Origin: Massilia sp. CF038
Lineage (GTDB): Bacteria > Pseudomonadota > Gammaproteobacteria > Burkholderiales > Burkholderiaceae_D
Assembly: GCF_900129765.1 (NCBI RefSeq)
Contig: NZ_FQWU01000001.1
Location: forward strand, 496,001 to 560,000
Direction of reading: 5' to 3'
Length of the DNA stretch: 64,000 nucleotides
The notes under the pieces are model-generated. The model searched no databases. It was not told the DNA's origin and worked only from the letters and a program-made list of their open reading frames with translations. Made by a program: the position numbers and the translations under genes. Every line of letters starts with the position of its first letter. The first letter of the stretch is position 1. Shown here piece after piece: positions 25,814 to 39,156 of the stretch.

Positions 25814-28345
25814 ATGCTGCTGCAATCGTTCCGCATGACCGCGCGCGACTGGCGCGCCGGTGAACTGCGTTTTCTCCTGATCGCCCTGATCGTGGCGGTA
25901 TCGGCCCTGTCGGCGGTCGGCTTCTTTATTGACCGCATGCGCAGCGGCCTCAACCGTGACGCGCACCAGTTGCTGGGCGCCGATCTGCTGATCAATGCCG
26001 ACAACCCGATCGCGCCCGCCTGGCGCGCCGAAGCCGTGCGGCGTGGTTTGCTTCTGGCCGACACCGTCACCTTCCCCAGCATGGCCCAGAGCGGCGAGGG
26101 CGAGCAGTCCATGGCCCAGCTGGCATCGATCAAGGCGGTCTCGCCCGGCTACCCCCTGCGCGGTCAACTCAAGATCACCAGCGATCCGCTCCAGGCCGGC
26201 GCCGGCCAGGGCAGCAAGACCGAGGCCACGCCGGCACCGGGCACGGTATGGGTCGACCTGAACGTGCTGACGGCCTTGCGCACCAGCGTGGGCAACACCA
26301 TCCAGGTGGGCGACAAGCAGTTCCGCATTGCGCAGCTAATCGCCAGTGAGCCGGATCGCGGACCCTCGTTTGCCAACTTCGCCCCCCGCGTCATGTTTGC
26401 CCTGGAAGATCTGGCGGCAACTGGCCTGGTCGACAACGGTTCGCGCGTGACCTACCGCCTGCAGGTGGCGGCGCCCTCCATCAACGACAACACCAGCGTG
26501 AGCGCCTTCGAAACCTGGATCAAGCAGCAGATCGAGACGGACAAAATCCGTGGCGTGCGGGTCGAGTCGCTTGAAAACGGCCGCCCCGAAATGCGCAATA
26601 CCCTGGACCGGGCCGACCGTTTCCTGTCCCTGGTTGGCCTGCTGTCGGCCATGCTGGCGGCAGTGGCGGTGGCCATGGCGGCGCGCCGCTTCATGCTGCG
26701 CCATCTCGACGCCTGCGCCATGCTGCGCTGCCTTGGCCTGACCCAGAACCAGGTCACGCTGTTATACCTGACCGAGTTTGCCCTGGTGGGTCTGGCCGGC
26801 AGCGTGCTCGGGGTGCTGGTCGGTTTTGGCGGCCATCTGGTGCTGCTGCAGCTGATTGGCTCCCTGCTCACGACCGAGCTGCCGCCGGTGTCGGCACTGC
26901 CGGCCCTGCAAGGCGTGGTCACTGGCATGCTGCTGCTGGTCGGCTTTGCCCTGCCGCCAGTGCTCCAGCTGCGCAATGTGCCGCACAACCGCGTGATCCG
27001 GCGCGAGCAAAGTGCGCCCAAGCCGCTGGCACTGGCCACCTACGGCCTGGGGGTGTGCGTGTTTGCCGGCCTGCTGCTGTGGCAGGCGGGCGACGCCAAA
27101 CTGGCGCTCATGACCGCAGGCGGCTTTTTGGCCGGCTTTGCCTTGTTTGCCGCTGCCGGCTGGCTGGGGCTGAAGGCGCTCAAGTCGCTGCGCGGCGCCG
27201 TCGACAGCCAGGCCTGGCGCTTTGCGGTCACGTCGCTGCAGCGCCGTCCCGGCGCCACCATTGTGCAGGTGGTGTCGCTGGCGCTGGGGCTGATGGCGCT
27301 GCTGCTGCTGACCGTGGTGCGCGGCGACCTGATGACAGCCTGGCGCAGCGCCACCCCGCCCGATGCACCAAACCGCTTTGTCATCAACATCATGCCGGAC
27401 CAGAAGGCCGCCCTGGAGCAGCGCCTGAGCGCGGCCAGCATCAAGGAGGTCACACTGTACCCGATGATCCGCGGCCGCCTGACGGCCGTCAACGGCGATG
27501 CCGTCACCGCCACCACCTACACCGAAGAAAACGCCCAGCGCCTGGCCGACCGCGAATTCAACCTGTCGGCCACCAGGGACATGCCCGAGACGAACGAGAT
27601 CGTGGCCGGCAAATGGTATGACGACAAACCTGGCGTGGCCGAGGCTTCGGTCGAGCAGGGCATTGCCAAGACACTGCGCCTGAAGCTGGGCGACAAGCTG
27701 CGCTTCGATGTGGGCGGCACGCCGGTGGAAGCGACCATCACCAGCTTGCGCAAGCTGGAATGGGGATCGATGCGGGCCAACTTCTTTGTCATCATCAATC
27801 CAGCGGCCATGGCGCAGGCCTCGCAAACCTACATGACGGCCTTCCACCTGCCGCCTGCGGCCGGCGGATTGACCAACGAGCTGGCGCGCAGCTATCCGAA
27901 CCTGACCGTGATCGACGTCAGCGGCATCATCAGCCAGTTGCAGGAAGTGCTGGACCAGGTGGTGACGGCGGTTGAATTCCTGTTTACGTTCACGCTGGCG
28001 TCAGGGGTACTGGTGCTGTACGCGGCGTTGATGGGCTCGCAGGATGAGCGCACCCGCGAATCGGGCCTGCTGCGCGCCCTGGGCGCCACGCGCAAGCAGC
28101 TGTCGCGCGCGCAGTGGATCGAATTTTCGCTGGTGGGCGGCTTGTCGGGCATGCTCGCCGCCTCGGGTGCGGCGGCGCTGGGCTGGGCCCTGGCGACTTA
28201 CCAGTTCAAGTTTGCGTGGACCTTCAGCCCCATGGTGTGGTTGGCCGGCCTGGTGGTCGGGGCCCTGTGCGCCGTGATTGGCGGCTGGCTTGGTTTGCGT
28301 AACGTACTGCGCCAGCCACCGTTGCAAACCCTGCGCGAAGCGTAA
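25814..28345 (+). CDS. Large FtsX/MacB-type ABC transporter permease (YbbP-like)
   Basis: 843 residues. A membrane helix near residues 15-37 (FLLIALIVAVSALSAVGFF) precedes a periplasmic domain, a group of helices (~260-460), a second extracytoplasmic domain and a final helix group (~710-830). Two FtsX domains are visible, in SLVGLLSAMLAAVAVAMAAR and FLFTFTLASGVLVLYAALMG. Relatives (YbbP) pair with an ATPase YbbA and a lipase-like protein TesA and are thought to extract lipids or lipoproteins from the membrane. No ATPase gene is adjacent, which is unusual. It is probably transcribed with the adenine deaminase gene, only 6 bp upstream. Confidence 0.86.
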   Translation: MLLQSFRMTARDWRAGELRFLLIALIVAVSALSAVGFFIDRMRSGLNRDAHQLLGADLLINADNPIAPAWRAEAVRRGLLLADTVTFPSMAQSGEGEQSMAQLASIKAVSPGYPLRGQLKITSDPLQAGAGQGSKTEATPAPGTVWVDLNVLTALRTSVGNTIQVGDKQFRIAQLIASEPDRGPSFANFAPRVMFALEDLAATGLVDNGSRVTYRLQVAAPSINDNTSVSAFETWIKQQIETDKIRGVRVESLENGRPEMRNTLDRADRFLSLVGLLSAMLAAVAVAMAARRFMLRHLDACAMLRCLGLTQNQVTLLYLTEFALVGLAGSVLGVLVGFGGHLVLLQLIGSLLTTELPPVSALPALQGVVTGMLLLVGFALPPVLQLRNVPHNRVIRREQSAPKPLALATYGLGVCVFAGLLLWQAGDAKLALMTAGGFLAGFALFAAAGWLGLKALKSLRGAVDSQAWRFAVTSLQRRPGATIVQVVSLALGLMALLLLTVVRGDLMTAWRSATPPDAPNRFVINIMPDQKAALEQRLSAASIKEVTLYPMIRGRLTAVNGDAVTATTYTEENAQRLADREFNLSATRDMPETNEIVAGKWYDDKPGVAEASVEQGIAKTLRLKLGDKLRFDVGGTPVEATITSLRKLEWGSMRANFFVIINPAAMAQASQTYMTAFHLPPAAGGLTNELARSYPNLTVIDVSGIISQLQEVLDQVVTAVEFLFTFTLASGVLVLYAALMGSQDERTRESGLLRALGATRKQLSRAQWIEFSLVGGLSGMLAASGAAALGWALATYQFKFAWTFSPMVWLAGLVVGALCAVIGGWLGLRNVLRQPPLQTLREA

Positions 28346-28355
28346 GTGAGGTAAT

Positions 28356-29351
28356 TTACGCCAGTTCGCGGGTGCGCAAAAAGTCGGCAAACGAGGCGGC
28401 CGGCTCGGTCAGTTCGCCCGGTGCAAGCGGGAACAAGGCCCAGTAGAAGTTCTGGCTCCCGCGGCACAGGCGCGCCGGTTGCACATGCTTGTGCCAGCTG
28501 CTGGCAAAGCTTTTGGCGTACAGGCCATCGCCACCGCGGAACCAGGCCACAATGCAGCGCTCGCGCAAGGCCGTCAGCAGCGAATCAGGGGCATCGTTGT
28601 CGCAGGCCACCTCAAAGTGCGAATCCATGCTCGCTTCGGTTTCCACCACCAGCAGCTGCGCATTGCCCTCATGGTCGTACATGAGGATACCGGGCGGGTT
28701 CGAATACACATAGTGTTCGACAATGCCGTGTTCGCGCAGCAGTGCCCGCACCACCGCGGCAAAGGCCGGGTCGCTGACAAAGGCGTAATTGTGCAGGGCC
28801 AGCATGTCGCGCAGGGAGTCCGAGCGCGCCACAAAAAACTCGCGCTGCAGGGCGACGATTTCCGCTTCCAGCTTGTCGAGCGCGGCTTCGTCGCTTTTTT
28901 TGATGTAGCGGTCAATCAGGCCGCGGTTGAACGCGTCGACTGCCACTTTTTCATCCGCCACCCCGGTGAAGAGAATTTTTTTGCAGGGCAGATGGCGCAG
29001 GGCCTCGCACACCTGAACCCCGTTCATCTGCGGCATGGAATAGTCCACCACCAGGACCGAGGGCGTGGCAAAGCGCTGGCGGTGAAAGCTGATGCGATGA
29101 ATCTGATCGATGTCGAAAGCGACGTTGCACTGCTCGTGCGCGTTGGGGTAAGTGTCATAACTGGCATGCAGCGCGTCGCTGTACTGCCCCTCGCCGTCCT
29201 GCTGGCCAAGCCAGTCAATGGCGCTGCGCGTGTCGTGGAAGGATTTGCTGGCCAGAGCGGGATCGAGCTGGAACGACAGGCTTTTCAGGAAGCTGTCGCT
29301 ATCATCAATCAATACAGTCAGGCTGGGGTGCTGGTAAATCGGCAGGGACAT
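28356..29351 (-). CDS. jqsR: Response regulator of the alpha-hydroxyketone quorum-sensing system (JqsR/LqsR-like)
   Basis: 331 residues. The receiver domain has the acidic pocket in LTVLIDDSDSFLK (Asp16, Asp17), the phosphoacceptor in VLVVDYSMPQMNG (Asp103) and the lysine region ILFTG...YIKKSD. The pocket and phosphoacceptor are ~87 residues apart instead of ~45, so about 40 residues are inserted in the receiver fold (~42-95). The output half has no DNA-binding or GGDEF/EAL motif. Such an output resembles LqsR of Legionella and JqsR of Janthinobacterium; the identification rests mainly on its place 13 bp after the sensor kinase gene and next to jqsA. Confidence 0.8.
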   Translation of the reverse strand: MSLPIYQHPSLTVLIDDSDSFLKSLSFQLDPALASKSFHDTRSAIDWLGQQDGEGQYSDALHASYDTYPNAHEQCNVAFDIDQIHRISFHRQRFATPSVLVVDYSMPQMNGVQVCEALRHLPCKKILFTGVADEKVAVDAFNRGLIDRYIKKSDEAALDKLEAEIVALQREFFVARSDSLRDMLALHNYAFVSDPAFAAVVRALLREHGIVEHYVYSNPPGILMYDHEGNAQLLVVETEASMDSHFEVACDNDAPDSLLTALRERCIVAWFRGGDGLYAKSFASSWHKHVQPARLCRGSQNFYWALFPLAPGELTEPAASFADFLRTRELA

Positions 29352-29364
29352 GGCACGCTCTCAA

Positions 29365-30669
29365 TCAATTCGGGTTGGCCTGCAGCCGCGCGGGCTGGCC
29401 GGGAAATTCAAGGACGAAGATGGTATAGGCCCACTCGCGCGACACGCAGCGGATGCTGGCGCGCCAGGCGTCGATGATCTCCTTGCACAGAGCCAGGCCG
29501 ATGCCGGAGCCGGAGTTGGGCGGGTAGGAATAAAAGCGCTTGAAGATCAGCGGCAGCTGGGGTGCGGCAATGCCGCAGCCGGTGTCGATGAACAGCAGGC
29601 GTGGTGTGTCGCGGCGGCCGTCGACCACGATGCGGATCCGGCCCTTGCCGGCGCGCTGCAGCGCCTTGAGCGCGTTGCGCAGCAGGTTGAGCAGAATGAC
29701 CACTGACAGTTCGTGCTTGCCCGCAAAGGTGAAGTCGGTCCGGATGTCGACCCGGACCGCGTCGCGCTGCGCCTGCGCCGTGAACGGGTAACGCCGGATG
29801 ACCGATTCGACCACGGCCTGCATTGATACTTCCTCGTCCGCCTCCAGCTGGTCGCGCACCGCGCGCGCAGACAGCAGGAACAGATCGACCATGTGATTCA
29901 TGTGCCGCACTTCATGCTGGATGCGGGCCATGGCTTCGCGCATTTCATGCAGGTCCGCGGCACTTGGTTTGTCCGGGCCGGACAGGCGGCGCGAAATGCC
30001 GCGCACATTGGCGTCGACGCTGACCAGTGGCGTGCGCAGTTCGTGCGATACCGTCGCCAGTCCCTGTGCCATGCCAGCCAGCTTTTCGTTGGCCAGCACG
30101 CGCCGCCCAACCTTGGCAGTGGAGATGACGATAATCGTGAAGGCGTACACCGGCAGATGCGACAGCAGCGCTTCGCTGGTGAGCACGGCCGCGTCACCGA
30201 CCACGGCGAACAAAACACCGGCCACCACGGCGCCTGTGGCAAACGAAGCAAGCGCGAACAAAAACGGGAAGTGAAACAGCACGATCAGCGCGATCAGCAG
30301 CGACTGGCCCCAGATTTCTGAGCCGTGATTCATCAAATACAGGAAGACAAACTGGAAGGGCAGGACGTAGGTCACGCCAATGAACAGATAGGTGCTGCGC
30401 AGGCGCCCGGACAGCAGGCGCGCAGCCCAGGGCGCGGGCAGGCACAGGGCCGCGCCGATCAGGCGCAGCAGCAGGCTGTCGAAATGCTGGGGGAACCAGT
30501 AGGTCCAGATCACGTAGTAAGCCGGCATGCCAATGCAGCCCACCCACGACAGGACGACAAAGCGCCAGGTTTCGCCGTCAAACTGGCGTTCATAACGGTG
30601 GCGCCAGCGCAGCACGGTGTGCTGGAACCGGCACTTGAGTGGTTCGACGATGCTGGTCCAGTTTGCCAT
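29365..30669 (-). CDS. jqsS: Membrane sensor histidine kinase of the autoinducer system (JqsS/CqsS-like)
   Basis: 434 residues from MANWTSIVEP at 30669. Six hydrophobic helices (about 36-58, 64-83, 92-112, 121-140, 143-160 and 171-186) form an input domain without a large periplasmic loop, as in CqsS/LqsS. The dimerisation helix follows with VSHELRTPLVSVDANVRG (phosphoacceptor His209). The ATPase domain has LLNLLRNALKALQRAG (N box), LFIDTGCGIA (G1) and GSGIGLALCKEII (G2). There is no receiver domain on the protein, so phosphate is presumably passed to JqsR encoded next. It is divergent from jqsA. The predicted ligand is the alpha-hydroxyketone made by JqsA. Confidence 0.85.
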   Translation of the reverse strand: MANWTSIVEPLKCRFQHTVLRWRHRYERQFDGETWRFVVLSWVGCIGMPAYYVIWTYWFPQHFDSLLLRLIGAALCLPAPWAARLLSGRLRSTYLFIGVTYVLPFQFVFLYLMNHGSEIWGQSLLIALIVLFHFPFLFALASFATGAVVAGVLFAVVGDAAVLTSEALLSHLPVYAFTIIVISTAKVGRRVLANEKLAGMAQGLATVSHELRTPLVSVDANVRGISRRLSGPDKPSAADLHEMREAMARIQHEVRHMNHMVDLFLLSARAVRDQLEADEEVSMQAVVESVIRRYPFTAQAQRDAVRVDIRTDFTFAGKHELSVVILLNLLRNALKALQRAGKGRIRIVVDGRRDTPRLLFIDTGCGIAAPQLPLIFKRFYSYPPNSGSGIGLALCKEIIDAWRASIRCVSREWAYTIFVLEFPGQPARLQANPN

Positions 30670-30731
30670 TCTGTCGTTTCGTAAGTGCTTGATATATCTC
30701 AATTGCGTTCAATCAAGCTGGATGGTGTCGC

Positions 30732-30751
30732 AAATTGACTAGGTGCAATTT
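30732..30751. promoter_or_regulatory. Small inverted repeat in the jqsS/jqsA intergenic region
   Basis: AAATTG (30732-30737) and CAATTT (30746-30751) are inverted about an 8-bp centre and touch the FNR-type box. With TTGACT at 30735-30740 inside it, this could be an operator over a -35 element; no matching -10 at normal spacing was found. Confidence 0.3.
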
Positions 30752-30763
30752 GATATGGATCAA
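30750..30763. promoter_or_regulatory. FNR/Anr-type binding site between jqsS and jqsA
   Basis: TTGAT-ATGG-ATCAA is a perfect match to the FNR/Anr consensus TTGAT-N4-ATCAA. It ends 72 bp before the jqsA ATG and lies 80 bp from the jqsS ATG, so it could act on either gene. A class II arrangement would place the jqsA start near 30798; no strong -10 is seen there, which fits an activator-dependent promoter. Confidence 0.65.
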
Positions 30764-30835
30764 CAAGGAGGCACGTTGCAGCTGCGCTGAAAAGCCTGGG
30801 CAGAAAATGATCAATTTTTCTTTGGAGAAATCATC

Positions 30836-32080
30836 ATGACATTTGCTGCTAATCAATCGTTTTCCGCCATCCGCGCAGAACTTTGCATGCCCGAATTTGT
30901 CCGTCGCCGTATGGATGCCCATTATGTGACCCGCGTTCAACAACTCTTGGGCGGCGAACATTTGCACGTGTGGAAGCCGGCGGAAGCGGGCGCAGTGATG
31001 TTGGCTAGCAACGACTATCTGAACATCTCGAATCACCCGCACTTGCTGGCGGCGCAGGCACGCAGTCTGCTTGGCAGCCAGTCCGGCATGCTGATGTCGT
31101 CGGTATTTCTGCAGGAGGGCAGCAGCCAGCACCGGCTGGAAGCCAAATTTGCCGCCTACATGGGGGCCGAGGACGGGGTCCTGGCGCAGTCCGGCTGGGC
31201 TGCCAATGTCGGCTTGCTGCAAACGCTGGCCGGACCCGGCGTGCCGGTCTACCTGGATATGATGGCGCACGCCTCGCTGTGGGAAGGCGTGCAGTCGGCA
31301 CAGGCCATCGGGGTGCCCTTCCTGCACAATGATCCGGCGCACCTGGAGCGTCAGGTGGACAAGCAAGGGGCGGGCATCATCGTGGTGGACGCCTTGTACA
31401 GCACCAATGGCAGCGTGGCTCCCTTGCAGCGTGTGGTGGAGATCGCCGAACGCAGCGGCAGCATCCTGATCGTGGACGAATCGCATTCGCTTGGTACCCA
31501 CGGCCCGCGTGGGGCCGGCCTGGTGGCGCAGCTTGGGCTGACCGAGCGCGTGCACTTTCGCACCGCTTCGCTGGCCAAGGCGTTTGCCGGACGTGCCGGC
31601 TTTCTGACCTGTTCGAGCCAGTTCAAGGGTTACTTCCTGTCGGCGTCGCGTCCGGCGATTTTCAGTTCCTGCCTGCTCGAGCATGAACTGGCCTGGTTCG
31701 ATGCGGCGCTCGATTTCATCAGCGCCGCCGACGCACAGCGCGCCGCGCTGCGCGATGTGACCACCCAGGTGCGCGAAGGCTTGCGTGGCCTGGGCTACAA
31801 CATCGACGATGGCAGCGAACAAATCGTGGCGCTGGAGGCGGGGCCGGAACCGAAAACGCTGGTGCTGCGCAAGGCACTGGAACGGCGCGGCATTTACGGC
31901 GCCGTGTTTTGTGCGCCAGCCACAGCCAAAAACCGTTCCCTCGTGCGGCTCACGCTCAACGCCGGCCTGAGCGCGCAGCAGATTGCGCGCCTGCTCGACG
32001 CCTGCGCCGACATGCGCCACGAAGTCGATCTGGAAGGCTGGTCCTCGTCCAAACGCCAGCACCGTCTGACGCTGGTATGA
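30836..32080 (+). CDS. jqsA: Alpha-hydroxyketone-type quorum-sensing autoinducer synthase (JqsA/CqsA/LqsA)
   Basis: 414 residues from the ATG at 30836, with GGAG 8 bases upstream. It is a PLP-dependent alpha-oxoamine synthase. The substrate region reads VMLASNDYLNISNHP; the cofactor pocket holds LIVDESHSLGTHGP (Asp214, His217) and the Schiff-base lysine is in TASLAKAFAGRAGF (Lys248). The wording of these motifs, SGWAANVGLLQTLAGPG and the ending KNRSLVRLTLNAGLS resemble CqsA (Vibrio), LqsA (Legionella) and JqsA (Janthinobacterium) rather than BioF or Kbl. These enzymes join an acyl-CoA to an amino-acid-derived unit to give CAI-1/LAI-1-like signals. The divergent kinase and regulator genes support the call. 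The exact signal made is unknown. Confidence 0.9.
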   Translation: MTFAANQSFSAIRAELCMPEFVRRRMDAHYVTRVQQLLGGEHLHVWKPAEAGAVMLASNDYLNISNHPHLLAAQARSLLGSQSGMLMSSVFLQEGSSQHRLEAKFAAYMGAEDGVLAQSGWAANVGLLQTLAGPGVPVYLDMMAHASLWEGVQSAQAIGVPFLHNDPAHLERQVDKQGAGIIVVDALYSTNGSVAPLQRVVEIAERSGSILIVDESHSLGTHGPRGAGLVAQLGLTERVHFRTASLAKAFAGRAGFLTCSSQFKGYFLSASRPAIFSSCLLEHELAWFDAALDFISAADAQRAALRDVTTQVREGLRGLGYNIDDGSEQIVALEAGPEPKTLVLRKALERRGIYGAVFCAPATAKNRSLVRLTLNAGLSAQQIARLLDACADMRHEVDLEGWSSSKRQHRLTLV

Positions 32081-32099: not shown

Positions 32100-32498
32100 A
32101 TGGCGGCCATGGATGAACCACAAACCTTATACAGTGTAATTGGCGGCGAGGCGCGCGTGCGCGAGCTGGTTGACCGTTTCTACGATCTGATGGAACTCGA
32201 ACCCGAGTTCGCGGGCATTCGCGCCCTGCACCCGGGTTCGATGGACGGTTCGCGCGACAAGCTGTTCATGTTCCTGTCCGGCTGGATGGGCGGGCCCGAC
32301 CTGTTCGTGGAACAGTTCGGGCACCCGCGCCTGCGCGCGCGCCACCTGCCGTTTGCCATCGGCAGCAGCGAGCGCGATCAATGGCTGCGCGCCATGGCCT
32401 GCGCCATGGAAGACATCGGCATTGACGAAGCGCTGCGCCTGCGTCTGATGGAATCGTTTTATCAGACTGCCGACTGGATGCGCAACAAAGCCGACTAG
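32100..32498 (+). CDS. Group II truncated haemoglobin
   Basis: 132 residues. The globin fold is of the 2-on-2 group II type: LYSVIGGEARVRELVDRFYD (B10 Tyr), then FLSGWMGGPDLFVEQFG, the proximal His in RARHLPFAIGSSERDQWL, and the conserved G8 Trp in the same segment. Group II proteins bind oxygen or nitric oxide and help detoxify NO or peroxide or deliver oxygen. The ATG at 32100 has GGAG 4 bases before it; the ATG at 32109 is an alternative. It lies 19 bp after jqsA and is probably on the same transcript. rmuC starts directly after its stop. Confidence 0.92.
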   Translation: MAAMDEPQTLYSVIGGEARVRELVDRFYDLMELEPEFAGIRALHPGSMDGSRDKLFMFLSGWMGGPDLFVEQFGHPRLRARHLPFAIGSSERDQWLRAMACAMEDIGIDEALRLRLMESFYQTADWMRNKAD

Positions 32499-33809
32499 AT
32501 GACCGACACTCACTTCTACATTCTGGCCGGCGCGGTGGCGCTGGTCCTGCTGCTGCAACTGGCGGCCTACCTGCACAAGGGCGCCAGCGCGGGGCTGGAA
32601 CGGATCGAGCGCGAACTGCGCCTGGAAACCCAGGCCAGTGCCCAGGCCACGCGCCAGGAGCTGGCCGCCACGCTGGCACAGTATCACGCGGCCACCGTGC
32701 AGCAGCTTGACAGCATGCGCCAGCAGATCAACCTGGGCAGCATCAGCGCGCGCGAAGAGCAGGCCACCACCCTCAAGCGCTTCAGCGACAGCATGACCCA
32801 GAATCTGACCGCGCTGACTGAATCGAACGCACAGCGCCTGCTGGAAGTGCGCGCCACGCTGGAAGTAAAAATCCGCGATCTGCAGACCGACAATGCCACG
32901 CGGCTGGAAGAAATGCGCAAGACGGTCGACGAAAAACTGCATGCCACACTTGAAACGCGCCTGACCGAATCGTTCCGCCAGGTGTCGGAGCGGCTGGAAA
33001 AGGTGCACCAGGGGCTGGGCGAAATGCAGCAGCTGGCCATTGGTGTGGGCGACCTGAAGCGCGTGCTCACCAACGTCAAGACGCGCGGTACCTGGGGTGA
33101 AGTGCAGCTTGAAATGCTGCTCGAGCAGGTGCTCACGGTCGACCAGTACGCCAAGAATGTGGAAACCGTGGCCGGTACCGGGGCGCGGGTGGAGTTTGCC
33201 ATCAAGCTGCCGGGGCAGACTGAGGGCGGGGCGCCGGTGTGGCTGCCGATCGACGCCAAATTCCCGAAAGAGCAATACGAACGCCTGGTGGAAGCTGCCG
33301 AGCGCGCCGATGCCGAAGGCGTGGCGCAGGGGGGGCGCGAGCTGGAACGGGCCGTGCGCCTGGAAGCGAAGACCATCTGCGAAAAATATCTGTCGCCGCC
33401 ACAGACGACCGACTTTGCGATTTTGTTCCTGCCCACCGAAGGCTTGTACGCAGAAGTGATGCGCCGGCCCGGTCTGGCCGACGATTTGCAGCGCACCTTG
33501 CGCGTGTCCATCGCGGGGCCGTCCACCCTGGCGGCGATTTTGAGCAGTTTGCAGATGGGTTTCCGTACGCTGGCGCTGGAAAAGCGCTCGTCCGAGGTGT
33601 GGCAGGTACTGGGCGCGGTCAAAACCGAGTTTGGCAAATTTGGCGATGTCCTCAGTCAAACCCGTCTGACGCTGGAAAAAGCGGCCAAGAATATCGAAAG
33701 CGCCGAAGTGCGCAGCCGTCAGATGGCGCGCAAGCTCAAGTCGGTGGAAGCGCTGCCGAGCGAGGCGGCGCAGCTCATGCTGGGACCGCAAATCGATGAC
33801 GCCGAGTAG
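32499..33809 (+). CDS. rmuC: RmuC-family DNA recombination protein
   Basis: 436 residues. An N-terminal membrane helix (ILAGAVALVLLLQLAAYL) is followed by a long coiled coil (~30-180) and the RmuC domain, with GDLKRVLTNVKTRGTWGEVQ, LPGQTEGGAPVWLPIDAKFP (nuclease-fold acidic and Lys residues), FAILFLPTEGLYAEVM and GPSTLAAILSSLQMGFRT. RmuC limits inversions at short inverted repeats in E. coli and has a predicted restriction-endonuclease-like fold. It begins on the base after the trHb stop codon, indicating translational coupling. No defence genes are near. Confidence 0.92.
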   Translation: MTDTHFYILAGAVALVLLLQLAAYLHKGASAGLERIERELRLETQASAQATRQELAATLAQYHAATVQQLDSMRQQINLGSISAREEQATTLKRFSDSMTQNLTALTESNAQRLLEVRATLEVKIRDLQTDNATRLEEMRKTVDEKLHATLETRLTESFRQVSERLEKVHQGLGEMQQLAIGVGDLKRVLTNVKTRGTWGEVQLEMLLEQVLTVDQYAKNVETVAGTGARVEFAIKLPGQTEGGAPVWLPIDAKFPKEQYERLVEAAERADAEGVAQGGRELERAVRLEAKTICEKYLSPPQTTDFAILFLPTEGLYAEVMRRPGLADDLQRTLRVSIAGPSTLAAILSSLQMGFRTLALEKRSSEVWQVLGAVKTEFGKFGDVLSQTRLTLEKAAKNIESAEVRSRQMARKLKSVEALPSEAAQLMLGPQIDDAE

Positions 33810-33966: not shown

Positions 33967-35124
33967 ATGCCTGGAACCACCGACTTCCCGCAAAAACCCA
34001 TCATCCTGGTGGTGGACGACACGCCGGATAACCTGATGCTGATGAGTAATCTGCTGAAGGACCGCTACCTCGTCAAGGCGGCCAACAACGGCGACAAGGC
34101 CTTGCGCATCGCCGTCCAGTTGCCCCACCCGGACCTGATCCTGCTCGACATCATGATGCCCGGTCTGTCCGGGCACGAGGTGGCGCGCCTGCTCAAGCTG
34201 GACCCGGCCACGCGCGACATTCCCATCATCTTCCTGACTGCGATGGCCAGCAGCGAAGACGAGACGCGCGGCCTGGAACTGGGCGCAGCCGATTACATCA
34301 CCAAGCCAATCAGTCCGCCGGTGGCGCTGGCGCGGGTCGAGACCCAGCTCAAGGTCAAGGCCGCAGCGGATTTTTTACGCGACAAGAACGAGTTCCTGGA
34401 GCAGGAAGTACAGCGCCGCACGCGCGAAGTAGTGGCGATCCAGGATGTCACTATCCACGCCATGGCCTCGCTTGCTGAAACGCGCGACAACGAGACAGGC
34501 AACCATATCCGCCGCACCCAGCACTATGTAAAGGTGCTGGCCAATGCCTTGCGCAGCCACCCGCGCTTTGCGGCCTACCTGGACGATGCGACCATTGCGC
34601 TGCTGTTCAAGTCGGCGCCTTTGCACGATATCGGCAAGATCGGTATTCCCGACCGCATTCTGCTGAAACCTGGCCGCTTCACGCCGGAAGAATTCGAGGT
34701 CATGAGGACCCACACCACGCTGGGACGTGACGCCATTGCCCACGCCGAAGCCCAACTGGGCATGGATGTGGAGTTTCTGCGCCTGGCCAAGGAGATCGCT
34801 TACGGCCACCAGGAAAAGTGGGATGGCAGCGGTTATCCCGAAGGGCTGGCCGGTGACGCGATTCCCATTTCGGCCCGCCTGATGGCAGTGGCCGACGTCT
34901 ACGACGCCCTGATCAGCCGGCGCGTGTACAAGGAGGGCATGCCGCACGCGCAGGCGGTGCAGATCATTCTTGATGGGCGCGGCAGTCACTTCGATCCCGA
35001 TATCTGCGACGCCTTCGAGACTTGCCTGCCGCGGTTCCAGGACATCGCCGCACGGTTTGCCGACAGTGACAACGACATCGCCGAAAAAGCGGTGGCGCTG
35101 GCTCATGCACTGCCATCTGCCTGA
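33967..35124 (+). CDS. Response regulator with HD-GYP c-di-GMP phosphodiesterase domain
   Basis: 385 residues. The N-terminal receiver has VVDDTPDNLMLMSNLL (Asp17, Asp18), LILLDIMMPGLSG (phosphoacceptor Asp61) and GAADYITKPI (Lys). After a helical linker comes an HD-GYP domain: ETGNHIRRTQHYVKVLANAL, the HD pair in APLHDIGKIGIPDRIL (His220-Asp221), GHQEKWDGSGYPEGLAG with the GYP triplet (289-291), and DVYDALISRRVYK. It should hydrolyse c-di-GMP in response to phosphorylation. The hybrid kinase gene starts 6 bp downstream, making that kinase the likely partner. A run of ~157 bp upstream probably holds the operon promoter. Confidence 0.93.
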   Translation: MPGTTDFPQKPIILVVDDTPDNLMLMSNLLKDRYLVKAANNGDKALRIAVQLPHPDLILLDIMMPGLSGHEVARLLKLDPATRDIPIIFLTAMASSEDETRGLELGAADYITKPISPPVALARVETQLKVKAAADFLRDKNEFLEQEVQRRTREVVAIQDVTIHAMASLAETRDNETGNHIRRTQHYVKVLANALRSHPRFAAYLDDATIALLFKSAPLHDIGKIGIPDRILLKPGRFTPEEFEVMRTHTTLGRDAIAHAEAQLGMDVEFLRLAKEIAYGHQEKWDGSGYPEGLAGDAIPISARLMAVADVYDALISRRVYKEGMPHAQAVQIILDGRGSHFDPDICDAFETCLPRFQDIAARFADSDNDIAEKAVALAHALPSA

Positions 35125-35130
35125 TCGATC

Positions 35131-38100
35131 ATGACGACCGTACTCGATTTTCTGGAACGCCTTTCCCTGCAAAAAAAGCTGACGGTGGGATTCAGCGCGT
35201 TACTGTTGCTGGCGCTCGCGCTGGGCCTGCAAAGTCTGGCAGCGCAAAACATTTTACGGCGCGATACCCAGCGTCTGCAGCAGGAAGGCATGGTCGGCAT
35301 TTCGCAGATCAAGGAAGTGCGCATCCACCTGGCACGCCAGGAACTGGCTGTGTACAAGGCCATGAATGCACGTGGTCGGGTGGGGCGCGATGAAGCGACA
35401 CGCCAGCTTGACCTGGCGCGGCTGCAGCTGCATACGGCACTCGATGCGTCGCGCTCGACGCTGTTCTTGCCGGCCAATGTAGTGCGCCTGCGCGAATTCG
35501 AGACCAGCCTGGCGCGCATTGACCGCATCAGTGAAGATGCACTCAAGCTCAGTGGCCAGCAGGACCAGGAGACGGCGCAAGCGTTGATTGACAACGACAG
35601 TTTCCGTCAACTGGCCGACGACGCTGACCAGAAGCTGGCCGAGATCGAGTCGGTCAAGGAGACCACGGTACGCGACACGCTGACCCGCTTCGGCCGGCTG
35701 GCCGACCGCAGCAATATCTTCACCTTTGCCTTGCTGGGCGGCGGGCTGGCATTGGCGCTGATGCTGGCCTGGCTAATCAGCCGTTCGATTCGCATGCCGA
35801 TCCAGCGGGTGCGCAGGGCGGTGGACGAATTGGCCGCTGGGCGCCTGCACGGCAGCATTCCGCACACCGATTTCAAGAACGAGACTGGCGACCTGGCACG
35901 CGCCATTGCCCTTTTGCAGACCGAGGCGCGCCAACTGGAGACCCAACGCTGGGTCAAGTCGCAGGAAGCGACGATCCAGACCGAATTGCAGCAGCTGGCC
36001 ACGCCGCGCGAAGCGGCCCAGCGGTTTCTCAGCCTGGTGGCGCCCTTGCTCAAGGCTGGCCACGGCGTGTTGTACACACATGAAGAAGGCAAGACTGCGC
36101 TGACTTTGGGCGCCAGCCACGCTGTCGACGCCGCGCGGCCGGCACCGGCCGAGCTGATGCCGGGCAGCGGTTTGCTGGGGCAATGCGCGCTGGATTTGCA
36201 GCCGCGTGTATTCAAGCAGGTCCCGTCCGACTACCTGCCGATTGCTTCGCAATTGGGCCAGGCCGCGCCACAGCATGTACAGGTGCAGCCGCTGGTGCAC
36301 GCGGGCCGCCTGATCGGGGTGCTCGAATTGGCCGGCTTCGAGGCCCCGGGCGAAGCCGAGAACATGCTGCTCGAAGCGCTCTTGCCCAAGCTGGCCGTGA
36401 CCATGGAGATCATGGCGCGCAACGAGGCAGTGCAAACCCTGCTTGAGCAAACACGCAGCCAGGCAGCCGACATCGAGGCGCAGGCACGCCGAGTTGAGCA
36501 GCAGGCCGCCGAACTGGAATCGCAACAGGTCGCACTCAAGGCCACCGAGGCCTGGTACCGCGGCATCATCAAGGCCGCACCAGACGGCATGATGGTGGCT
36601 GATGCGGATGGCCGCATCATGCTGAGCAATCCGCAGCTGGACAAACTGTTCGGTTACGCCGACGGCGAGTTGATCGGCCAGCCGATCGAGACGCTGGTGC
36701 CGCGCCCGGCGCGCACTGCGTATATATCGGCGCACAAGGCGCTGATCGAGGCAGGTGGCGCGCGCCAGCTGGGCGGCGTTAATGCCGATCTGTACGGCCT
36801 GCGCAAGGATGGGAGCCTGTTCTCGGTCGAGATTGGCCTGTCACGCCTGCCAGCGGTGGAAGAGCGCGGCGTGTGCGTATGCGCCTCGGTGCGCGACATC
36901 AGCGACCGCAAGCTGGCCGAAGCGGAAGTCGTGCGGGCCAAGGAAATCGCCGAAGAGGCCACGCGCGCCAAGAGCGATTTCCTGGCCAATATGAGCCATG
37001 AAATCCGCACACCGATGAATGCGATCATCGGCATGAGCCATCTCGCGCTGCGCACCGACCTCGATACCAAGCAGCGCAACTACGTGGAGAAAGTACACCG
37101 CTCGGCGGAGAATCTGCTGGGGATCATCAACGATATCCTCGACTTCTCGAAGATCGAAGCAGGCAAGATGACGGTGGAAAAAATCGGCTTCCGGCTCGAA
37201 GATGTGCTGGACAACTTCGCCAGCATGATCGGCATGAAGGCGGAAGAGAAGGGCCTCGAACTGCTGTTTGCCACCGCTGCGGACCTGCCTACCTCGCTGA
37301 TCGGCGACCCGCTGCGCCTGGGCCAGTTGCTGATCAACCTGGGCAACAACGCCGCCAAGTTCACCGAGACGGGCGAGATTGTGGTGGGCGCCGAAGTGGT
37401 GGCGGAGGCGGAAGGCAGAGTCGAACTGCATTTCTGGGTCAAGGACAGCGGCATTGGCATGTCGCCCGAACAATGCGCGCGCATGTTCCAGTCGTTCAGC
37501 CAGGCCGACACGTCCACCACGCGCAAGTATGGCGGGACCGGGCTTGGGCTGGCCATCTCGAAAAAACTGGTGGAACTGATGGATGGCCGGATCTGGGTTG
37601 ACAGTGAGACCGGCAAGGGCTCGACCTTCCACTTCCATGCCTGGTTCGGGGTGCAGGAAGATGTGCAGGCGCGGCGCATGTTCAAGGCCGACGAATTGCT
37701 GGGGATGCGGGTGCTGGTAGTGGATGACAATGCCAGCGCGCGCGAAATCCTGTCCACCATGGCGAGCAGTTTTGGTCTGGAAGTGGACGTGGCGGAAAAC
37801 GGCCACGTGGCTCTGCACCGGATGGCGGAGGCGGAACGGCGCGCATTGCCCTACGATCTGATTCTGCTGGACTGGAAGATGCCGGTCATGGATGGGGTCG
37901 CGGCATTGCGTGAAATGCAGACCGGGACGCTGGCCAAGGTGCCAGCGGTGATCATGTTGACTGCATTTGGACGCGACGAGGCCCAGGAGGAGGCGCAGCG
38001 GCAACAGGTAGCGCTGCCGTCAGTGCTGACCAAGCCAGTGACACCATCGACCCTGCTTGAAGCCATCGGCGAAGTACGGGGTATCGGCCGCATCGGCGCC

Positions 38101-39156
38101 ACGCGCCAGACCGAGCGCCAGGATCAGGGCGCATCGGCCATGGCGCGATTGTCAGGTGCGCGCCTGCTGCTGGTGGAAGACAATGAGATGAACCAGGAAC
38201 TGGCGCGCGATCTTTTGGCCAGCGCTGGCATTGAACTGATCGTCGTTGGCGACGGCCAGCAGGCGCTTGACATGCTGGCCATCGATGCCGCCTTCGACGG
38301 CATTTTGATGGATTGCCAGATGCCGGTCATGGACGGCTATACCGCCACCCGGCTGCTGCGCGAGCAGCCTCGCTTTGCCACCCTGCCGGTGATTGCGATG
38401 ACCGCCAACGCAATGGACGGTGACCGCGACAAGGCGATTGACAGCGGCATGAACGATCACATTTCCAAGCCGCTCAATGTCGATGTCATGTTTGCGACCC
38501 TGGCCAAATGGATCACGCCGATCTGGCAGACGCCGATGCCGCCTGAGTCAGCGCTGGCTCCGCGTAGCGCGGTGCCACCGCTGCCTGCGGGGATCGATGC
38601 CGTAGCTGGCCTGGCCACGTGCATGGGGAGAGAAGAACTGTACCAACGCATGCTTGGCATGTTCCGCGAGACGCATGGCAACTTCATGGCGGACTTTGAA
38701 CAGGCGCTGGGAAGCAGCGACGCGGGCGCTGCTGCCAGAGTCGCGCATACACTGCGCGGCACGGCAGGCAACATCGGTGCGCGCGCGATTGCTGCCGCTG
38801 CCGGAGCGCTGGAACAAGCTTGCCTCGACGGCGACGATCGCGCGCGCCTGCTGTATTTGCAAGGTGAGGTTGAACGCGAGCTGGCGCCCGTGATTGTCGG
38901 ACTTGATGCACTGGACCTGACCCAGAACGCGGCAGCGGTGTCGCCGCAAGCAGATCCTGCCGCGGTGTCAGTCCTGGTGTCCCGGCTCGCAAAGCTACTG
39001 GCAGAGAGCGACACTGCCGCAATGGATGCGCTGATTGAACTGGAAGCTCTGATCGGCGCCCATCCGCTCGCAGCGCGGCTGCGCCAGGTCAGCGAGCGTG
39101 TAGAACGTTTCGATTTTGATGAAGCGCTGGTGCTGCTTGACGAACCTTCGTGGTGA
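35131..39156 (+). CDS. Hybrid sensor histidine kinase with GAF, PAS, two receivers and Hpt
   Basis: 1341 residues. In order: membrane helix ~17-38; a helical periplasmic sensor region (~40-190); helix ~193-215; HAMP ~215-265; GAF-like domain ~290-430; coiled coil; PAS ~475-590 (IIKAAPDGMMVADADGRIML); HisKA with NMSHEIRTPMNAIIGM (His623); HATPase with NLGNNAAKFTETGEI and GGTGLGLAISKKLVEL; receiver 1 (LILLDWKMPVMDG, Asp914); receiver 2 (GILMDCQMPVMDG, Asp1061); Hpt with ARVAHTLRGTAGNIG (His1206). Such an architecture runs an internal His-Asp-His relay and then feeds an external receiver. The HD-GYP regulator gene just upstream is the obvious target. The signal is unknown. Confidence 0.93.
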   Translation: MTTVLDFLERLSLQKKLTVGFSALLLLALALGLQSLAAQNILRRDTQRLQQEGMVGISQIKEVRIHLARQELAVYKAMNARGRVGRDEATRQLDLARLQLHTALDASRSTLFLPANVVRLREFETSLARIDRISEDALKLSGQQDQETAQALIDNDSFRQLADDADQKLAEIESVKETTVRDTLTRFGRLADRSNIFTFALLGGGLALALMLAWLISRSIRMPIQRVRRAVDELAAGRLHGSIPHTDFKNETGDLARAIALLQTEARQLETQRWVKSQEATIQTELQQLATPREAAQRFLSLVAPLLKAGHGVLYTHEEGKTALTLGASHAVDAARPAPAELMPGSGLLGQCALDLQPRVFKQVPSDYLPIASQLGQAAPQHVQVQPLVHAGRLIGVLELAGFEAPGEAENMLLEALLPKLAVTMEIMARNEAVQTLLEQTRSQAADIEAQARRVEQQAAELESQQVALKATEAWYRGIIKAAPDGMMVADADGRIMLSNPQLDKLFGYADGELIGQPIETLVPRPARTAYISAHKALIEAGGARQLGGVNADLYGLRKDGSLFSVEIGLSRLPAVEERGVCVCASVRDISDRKLAEAEVVRAKEIAEEATRAKSDFLANMSHEIRTPMNAIIGMSHLALRTDLDTKQRNYVEKVHRSAENLLGIINDILDFSKIEAGKMTVEKIGFRLEDVLDNFASMIGMKAEEKGLELLFATAADLPTSLIGDPLRLGQLLINLGNNAAKFTETGEIVVGAEVVAEAEGRVELHFWVKDSGIGMSPEQCARMFQSFSQADTSTTRKYGGTGLGLAISKKLVELMDGRIWVDSETGKGSTFHFHAWFGVQEDVQARRMFKADELLGMRVLVVDDNASAREILSTMASSFGLEVDVAENGHVALHRMAEAERRALPYDLILLDWKMPVMDGVAALREMQTGTLAKVPAVIMLTAFGRDEAQEEAQRQQVALPSVLTKPVTPSTLLEAIGEVRGIGRIGATRQTERQDQGASAMARLSGARLLLVEDNEMNQELARDLLASAGIELIVVGDGQQALDMLAIDAAFDGILMDCQMPVMDGYTATRLLREQPRFATLPVIAMTANAMDGDRDKAIDSGMNDHISKPLNVDVMFATLAKWITPIWQTPMPPESALAPRSAVPPLPAGIDAVAGLATCMGREELYQRMLGMFRETHGNFMADFEQALGSSDAGAAARVAHTLRGTAGNIGARAIAAAAGALEQACLDGDDRARLLYLQGEVERELAPVIVGLDALDLTQNAAAVSPQADPAAVSVLVSRLAKLLAESDTAAMDALIELEALIGAHPLAARLRQVSERVERFDFDEALVLLDEPSW

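Follow-up and report, generated by a model that had tools for sequence, protein, structure and literature searches.

In a 64,000-nucleotide stretch of the genome of Massilia sp. CF038 (contig NZ_FQWU01000001.1, positions 496,001-560,000; hereafter the window, whose positions are used throughout), positions 28356-32080 hold what is almost certainly, as judged from sequence comparison, a quorum-sensing gene module of the Jqs/Lqs type. One strand carries jqsA, the gene for a pyridoxal phosphate (PLP)-dependent synthase of alpha-hydroxyketone (AHK)-type autoinducers; on the opposite strand, across 166 bases, jqsS and jqsR encode a membrane histidine kinase and an LqsR-family response regulator (Table 1). 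A preliminary description of this DNA had proposed a complete AHK quorum-sensing locus with the synthase divergent from the kinase and the regulator. Its three open reading frames (ORFs) were all found where it placed them, the divergent arrangement was recovered, and matches to an NCBIfam model, to CqsA structures and to an LqsR structure bear out the proposal. Between the divergent genes lie two palindromic boxes, one of which coincides both with a motif published for the Jqs regulon and with the consensus binding site of the FNR family, and a role for an FNR-type protein at this promoter is the interpretation developed here.

Table 1. Features at and around the jqs locus, in window positions
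Feature	Position	Strand	Basis or remark
jqsA, AHK-type autoinducer synthase, PLP enzyme, 414 aa, Lys248	30836..32080	+	NCBIfam, CqsA structures, tree
jqsS, membrane histidine kinase, His209, LqsS/CqsS-type by position and architecture	29365..30669	-	HisKA and HATPase_c; hydropathy; 14 aligned relatives
jqsR, LqsR-family response regulator, Asp103	28356..29351	-	LqsR 6sy9; Pfam receiver only; 18-sequence alignment
Divergent jqsS/jqsA promoter region	30670..30835	.	Sequence; comparison with 93 other jqsA upstream regions
Proximal box TTGATATGGATCAA, JAI-1 motif and perfect FNR box	30750..30763	.	First base at -86 from jqsA ATG
Distal box TTGATATATCTCAA, JAI-1 motif with a single mismatch to the FNR consensus	30689..30702	.	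20 bases upstream of jqsS ATG
Bacterial-like (truncated) globin gene	32100..32498	+	Pfam PF01152, 8.9e-40; starts 20 bases after jqsA
rmuC, directly after the globin gene, same gene string	32499..33809	+	Pfam PF02646, 1.5e-75; no signalling tie shown
YbbP-like ATP-binding cassette (ABC) permease gene, convergent neighbour of jqsR	25814-28345	convergent to jqsR	514.9 bits, below model cut-off 999

The synthase belongs, as the preliminary description had expected, to the CqsA/LqsA family. JqsA scores 551.5 bits against the NCBIfam AHK-synthase model NF005526 (expectation value, E, 9e-166; cut-off 428) and falls below the cut-offs of the bioF (232.6 bits; 426), Kbl (190.1; 460), SPT (192.5; 500) and HemA (154.5; 338.6) models. 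The CqsA structures 2wk8, 2wk7 and 3hqt are matched with E of about 4e-104 (3.7e-104 for 2wk8), and alignment to Vibrio cholerae CqsA (2wk8) over residues 18-393 places Lys248 opposite the SLAK lysine; the earlier reading of a PLP enzyme with CqsA/LqsA-like motifs, Lys248 lying in SLAKAFAGRAG, was correct. A separate BioF (L004) and a separate Kbl (L002) are encoded in the same genome and served as outgroups in a 33-row tree, HemA being judged by model score instead. The 31 AHK synthases split from both with support 100/100, and the topology that the preliminary description had named as decisive against it, with the synthase inside BioF/Kbl, was not recovered. Because both outgroup branches are very long, the curated cut-offs were weighed as much as the tree.

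JqsS carries HisKA and HATPase_c domains (Pfam), with His209 within SHELRTP, and is conserved among 14 aligned relatives. A simple hydropathy scan found roughly six hydrophobic stretches at its N-terminus, where neighbouring stretches merge and the exact number is uncertain, so that of the six-helix histidine kinase first described the kinase stands firmly and the helix count approximately. JqsS is classed as an LqsS/CqsS-type kinase by its position and architecture rather than by direct alignment to CqsS or LqsS. JqsR matches the solved LqsR structure 6sy9 over nearly its whole length (residues 2-302 of 331; E 8.4e-46), and Asp103 of its receiver is invariant across 18 aligned regulators. Pfam reports the receiver domain alone, with no DNA-binding domain found, in agreement with the regulator lacking such a motif in the preliminary description; the likeness it saw to the Janthinobacterium jqs set is likewise upheld by the family assignments and by the published jqs gene arrangement. 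In all 35 named loci compared (L009-L043, some cut by contig ends), jqsS and jqsR lie on the strand opposite jqsA. The three genes of one of these loci, L043 of Massilia sp. H-1, match only piecewise, as if frameshifted or of poor-quality sequence.

A "JAI-1 motif", TTGAN6/7TCAA, is described in PMC5080296 upstream of jqsA, vioA, chiA and most JAI-1-regulated genes. The window contains five such motifs where shuffled sequence predicts 1.17 (none of 100 shuffles reached five), and two of the five sit between jqsS and jqsA. The proximal one, TTGATATGGATCAA, is intergenic and agrees at all 10 fixed bases, with no mismatch, with the FNR box consensus TTGATNNNNATCAA given in PMC4505428 and PMC7349173, while the distal one, TTGATATATCTCAA, departs from it at one base. 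The ATG at the 30669 end was taken as the start of jqsS; translation could also begin at a TTG at 30702. The preliminary description made no mention of an FNR box in this promoter. The main text of PMC5080296 uses none of the terms FNR, oxygen, anaerob and "transcription factor", and among titles and abstracts on JAI-1, on hydroxyketones or CqsA, on Janthinobacterium together with FNR, and on jqs (30 of 1,973), a body of literature with subscription journals mostly outside it, none equates the JAI-1 motif with the FNR box. Judged by titles, abstracts and term counts, none of these papers treats AHK signalling as controlled by FNR. The reinterpretation of the JAI-1 motif as an FNR box is probably new; the locus type itself has already been published as Jqs.

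Conservation of the box was assessed in 94 jqsA upstream regions, which reduce to 79 distinct ones when each of 15 identical pairs is counted singly; excluded beforehand were L044 and L045 for weak matches, L119 as the own genome again, and L154 for a weak jqsA match. TTGAN6TCAA occurs at -75 to -101, a range chosen after the positions were seen, in 62 of the 94 regions and in 47 of the 79 distinct ones, and a perfect box stands at -120 in L148. The N7 spacing is absent from all 94 and a swapped core occurs once. With the 47 distinct regions aligned ungapped on the box, an arrangement in which indels would blur the flanks, the sole flanking column of at least 70% identity is a T 14 bases upstream. 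Among 25 distinct proximal boxes, at least one TTGAT half is present in 24 and both halves in seven, and T occupies position 7 in 22, as it does in the boxes of ccoN, nirK and hemN in this genome. In L009, L042 and L124 the box reads TTGATCTAGATCAA, which PMC4505428 names as an FNR reference site. An Fnr-model match at 1e-30 or better was found in each of the 33 box-bearing genomes tested, 32 of them over the cut-off and one (G113) at 227.4 bits, just under 228. Of the ten genomes of genus g28, which have jqsA and no box, three have no Fnr-model match and seven have Fnr, as do G087 and G021, where jqsA is likewise boxless.

The genome as a whole contains 20 perfect FNR boxes, against 13 half-site-swapped controls, and boxes outnumber swapped controls in 12 of 14 genomes. 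All 20 are intergenic and lie at most 350 bases from a predicted start (two in one region), compared with three of the 13 swapped controls that are intergenic; intergenic or coding status was assigned by a simple ORF picker based on codon usage, for which ten genes of the window served as training set. A control in which the box was read backwards (1 vs 20 here; 0-1 vs 12-97 in 13 relatives) was judged too easy and not used, the swapped control giving 13; reliance was placed on the location and conservation of the boxes. Perfect boxes lie upstream of ccoN (745.5 bits; cut-off 583), the copper nitrite reductase gene nirK (341.5; 296), an OmpW-family gene and a PRC-barrel gene, and hemN (588.1; 325) is preceded by TTGAGGTGCATCAA. 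The published JAI-1 regulon includes a motif-bearing PRC-barrel gene, JAB4_16300 (PMC5080296), which is likened here by family and not by orthology.

Further boxes were noted in passing. The same 14 bases as the proximal box recur (L079, G000:C2:2054843-2054856) ahead of a polysaccharide deacetylase gene, at a distance of 20 bases, and polysaccharide deacetylases are also listed in the published JAI-1 regulon (PMC5080296). Another perfect FNR box (L074, G000:C2:894042-894055) lies between two divergent ORFs, by eye a KaiC-type ATPase and a phage-tail-sheath-like protein, the latter with no Pfam match. The box L081 had been taken to lie upstream of an exopolysaccharide-export-like gene, an assignment dropped when it was found downstream of that gene.

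Two proteins of the genome could recognise such sites. The Fnr of this genome (L060) scores 264.6 bits against a cut-off of 228 and shows, by eye, the cluster cysteines and E-xx-SR, which PMC4505428 gives as the recognition residues of FNR. A paralog, L058 (G000:C2:817712-818569, minus strand), scores 153.6 bits against the same model, short of its cut-off; by eye it keeps E-xx-SR and has no iron-sulfur cluster cysteines. L058-type matches at E 1e-40 or better occur in 151 of the 195 genomes of the GTDB family, although some may be Fnr itself, and many of the 151 have no AHK synthase; L058 was accordingly rejected as a jqs-specific partner.

These observations suggest a model for the circuit. 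Enzymes of the CqsA/LqsA kind combine an acyl-CoA with a donor derived from an amino acid to form their signal, and JqsA would make an AHK-type signal, of presumed structure, from such substrates. The membrane kinase JqsS would sense this AHK and alter the phosphorylation of JqsR, which, having no recognisable DNA-binding domain, would have to act through a partner. An FNR-type protein, either the oxygen-sensing Fnr or the cluster-less paralog, may bind TTGATATGGATCAA and set the divergent transcription of jqsA and jqsS-jqsR, reading the box alongside JqsR or through the partner of JqsR. With an FNR-type protein on the jqsA box, hydroxyketone signalling would be gated by oxygen, and signal production would follow oxygen as well as cell number. 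We judge the FNR-family wiring of jqsA and jqsS rather probable, and the whole explanation, in which a Jqs module under FNR-family control links signalling to oxygen, has slightly better than even prospects. A wider proposal, that the JAI-1 motif of the Oxalobacteraceae regulon is itself an FNR-family box, at which Fnr and its cluster-less paralog share sites and combine cell density with oxygen (or nitric oxide) on one DNA element, with the globin gene in the same circuit, stands evenly balanced. The globin gene is probably transcribed together with jqsA; its place downstream of jqsA would be in keeping with a theme of oxygen or nitric oxide and proves nothing.

Several observations weigh against FNR-family control. 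TTGAN6TCAA is missing within 320 bases of jqsA in 31 of the 94 upstream regions, the boxless genes including those of Pseudoduganella (L033, L035), of one Janthinobacterium (L040) and of all ten g28 loci. One or both halves are imperfect in 18 of the 25 distinct proximal boxes, and the Janthinobacterium boxes carry one TTGAG half. The published motif allows N7, and most JAI-1 targets reported in PMC5080296 are not typical anaerobic genes. The excess of 20 boxes over 13 swapped controls is weak taken alone, and in two genomes, G205 and G206, boxes are fewer than the controls (27 vs 44 and 24 vs 45); these two carry the loci L033 and L035, in which jqsA lacks the box. Finally, the loci are related, and the counts are of non-independent events.

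Among other accounts, the box could belong within the quorum-sensing pathway itself, being read by a cluster-less FNR-like protein such as L058 that is activated downstream of JqsR, with oxygen playing no part at jqsA. The motif is linked in PMC5080296 to genes whose expression falls in jqsA mutants, L058 retains the recognition residues without the cluster cysteines, and no g28 genome has a strong L058-type match. However, proteins of the L058 type occur widely and with very high conservation even where no AHK synthase exceeds the cut-off (96% identity in G003) and so are not jqs-specific; moreover, G113 has the box and an Fnr match but no L058-type match, while the box is missing at jqsA of G087 and G021, both of which encode an L058-type protein. 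We regard this account as unlikely, though far from negligible. That an unrelated regulator, for example of the LysR type, reads the TTGAN6TCAA palindrome and that the likeness to FNR is coincidental appears improbable. The palindrome is short, both of its halves are perfect in only seven of the 25 distinct boxes, and no regulator was found named for it in PMC5080296; yet a TTGAT half would be expected in about 44% of boxes if positions 5 and 10 were free, far from the 24 of 25 observed, and T at position 7 is common to the ccoN, nirK and hemN boxes, with Fnr present in all box-bearing genomes tested. A search for papers containing both "JAI-1" and "PhcA", the latter a LysR-type protein whose homologue might be the binder, found none, and the genome was searched neither for PhcA nor for another LysR-type candidate. 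It is highly improbable that JqsA is an ordinary BioF/Kbl-type metabolic enzyme in a locus without signalling: the fold family is shared and the bioF model gives 232.6 bits, but this score is far under its cut-off whereas the AHK score exceeds its own, a separate BioF and Kbl are present and split off in the tree, and a kinase and an LqsR-type regulator are linked in every named locus.

The weight of FNR-family control, if it holds, lies in the absence of a recognisable DNA-binding domain from both JqsR and LqsR, which leaves the route from hydroxyketone signalling to promoters to be explained. Were the motif an FNR-family site, the missing transcription factor would have two named candidates, Fnr and L058, and quorum sensing of the hydroxyketone type would be tied to oxygen. 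In PMC5080296, a deletion removing the motif is reported to have cut vioA promoter activity by 75-90%, and loss of jqsA about two-fold; FNR-family reading of the motif could explain why the former drop is the stronger. Should FNR-family control prove false, the locus would still add one more well-supported case to a known kind of system.

The AHK synthase is widespread among close relatives. It exceeds the cut-off in all 13 sampled genomes of the genus and in 45 of the 195 of the GTDB family, and in a phylum sample it occurs, scattered, in 16 of 398 genomes (the window's genome included). The earlier statement that the system is rare outside the Vibrio, Legionella and Janthinobacterium groups thus does not hold for the locus's own group. 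The best of the named relatives, at 83% identity, is a Massilia sp., and the description of one Massilia species (PMC9028926) also contains jqs terms. The window's genome further encodes a LuxI-type acyl-homoserine-lactone synthase (L169, G000:C2:1724905-1725402; 123 bits, cut-off 24), and the AHK therefore need not be the sole signal; a second LuxI-type match is marginal (L170, G000:C3:138964-139263; 24.3 bits vs 24).

Downstream of jqsA, 29 of the 35 named loci carry the globin gene in the same orientation, with spacings that range from about 10 bases up to about 2.3 kb; the larger gap, filled by other sequence, is found in most Janthinobacterium loci. Beyond rmuC, positions 33967-39156 hold a response regulator related to cyclic di-GMP phosphodiesterase regulators (144.9 bits, below the cut-off of 400) and a 1341-residue ORF that is by eye a hybrid histidine kinase.

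The locus most resembles the Jqs system of Janthinobacterium and Duganella (PMC3566124, PMC5080296), members of the same bacterial family in which jqsA likewise stands beside jqsS and jqsR with a JAI-1 motif upstream. It differs in that a LuxI-type synthase is present in this genome, strain HH01 being described in PMC3566124 as lacking one, and in that the motif is here a perfect FNR box, a point absent from the main text of PMC5080296. With the Lqs system of Legionella pneumophila (PMC5289986) it shares an AHK synthase, a kinase without a receiver and an LqsR-type regulator, although the Legionella order is lqsA-lqsR-hdeD-lqsS, whereas here jqsA diverges from jqsS-jqsR and no hdeD intervenes. 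LAI-1 is reported to inhibit kinase autophosphorylation in Legionella (PMC5289986). According to PMC10653808, the output domain of LqsR is similar to a diguanylate cyclase domain, its signature is degenerate, and no activity was detected in vitro. With the CqsA/CqsS system of Vibrio the locus shares a synthase homologous to CqsA over residues 18-393; in contrast to the V. cholerae cqs cluster, which PMC3566124 describes without one, an LqsR-type regulator is present here. As in the FNR regulons described in PMC4505428, PMC7349173 and PMC5934665, the jqs box fits the consensus and stands among boxes of ccoN, nirK and hemN; unlike those, it sits at the gene of a quorum-sensing synthase.

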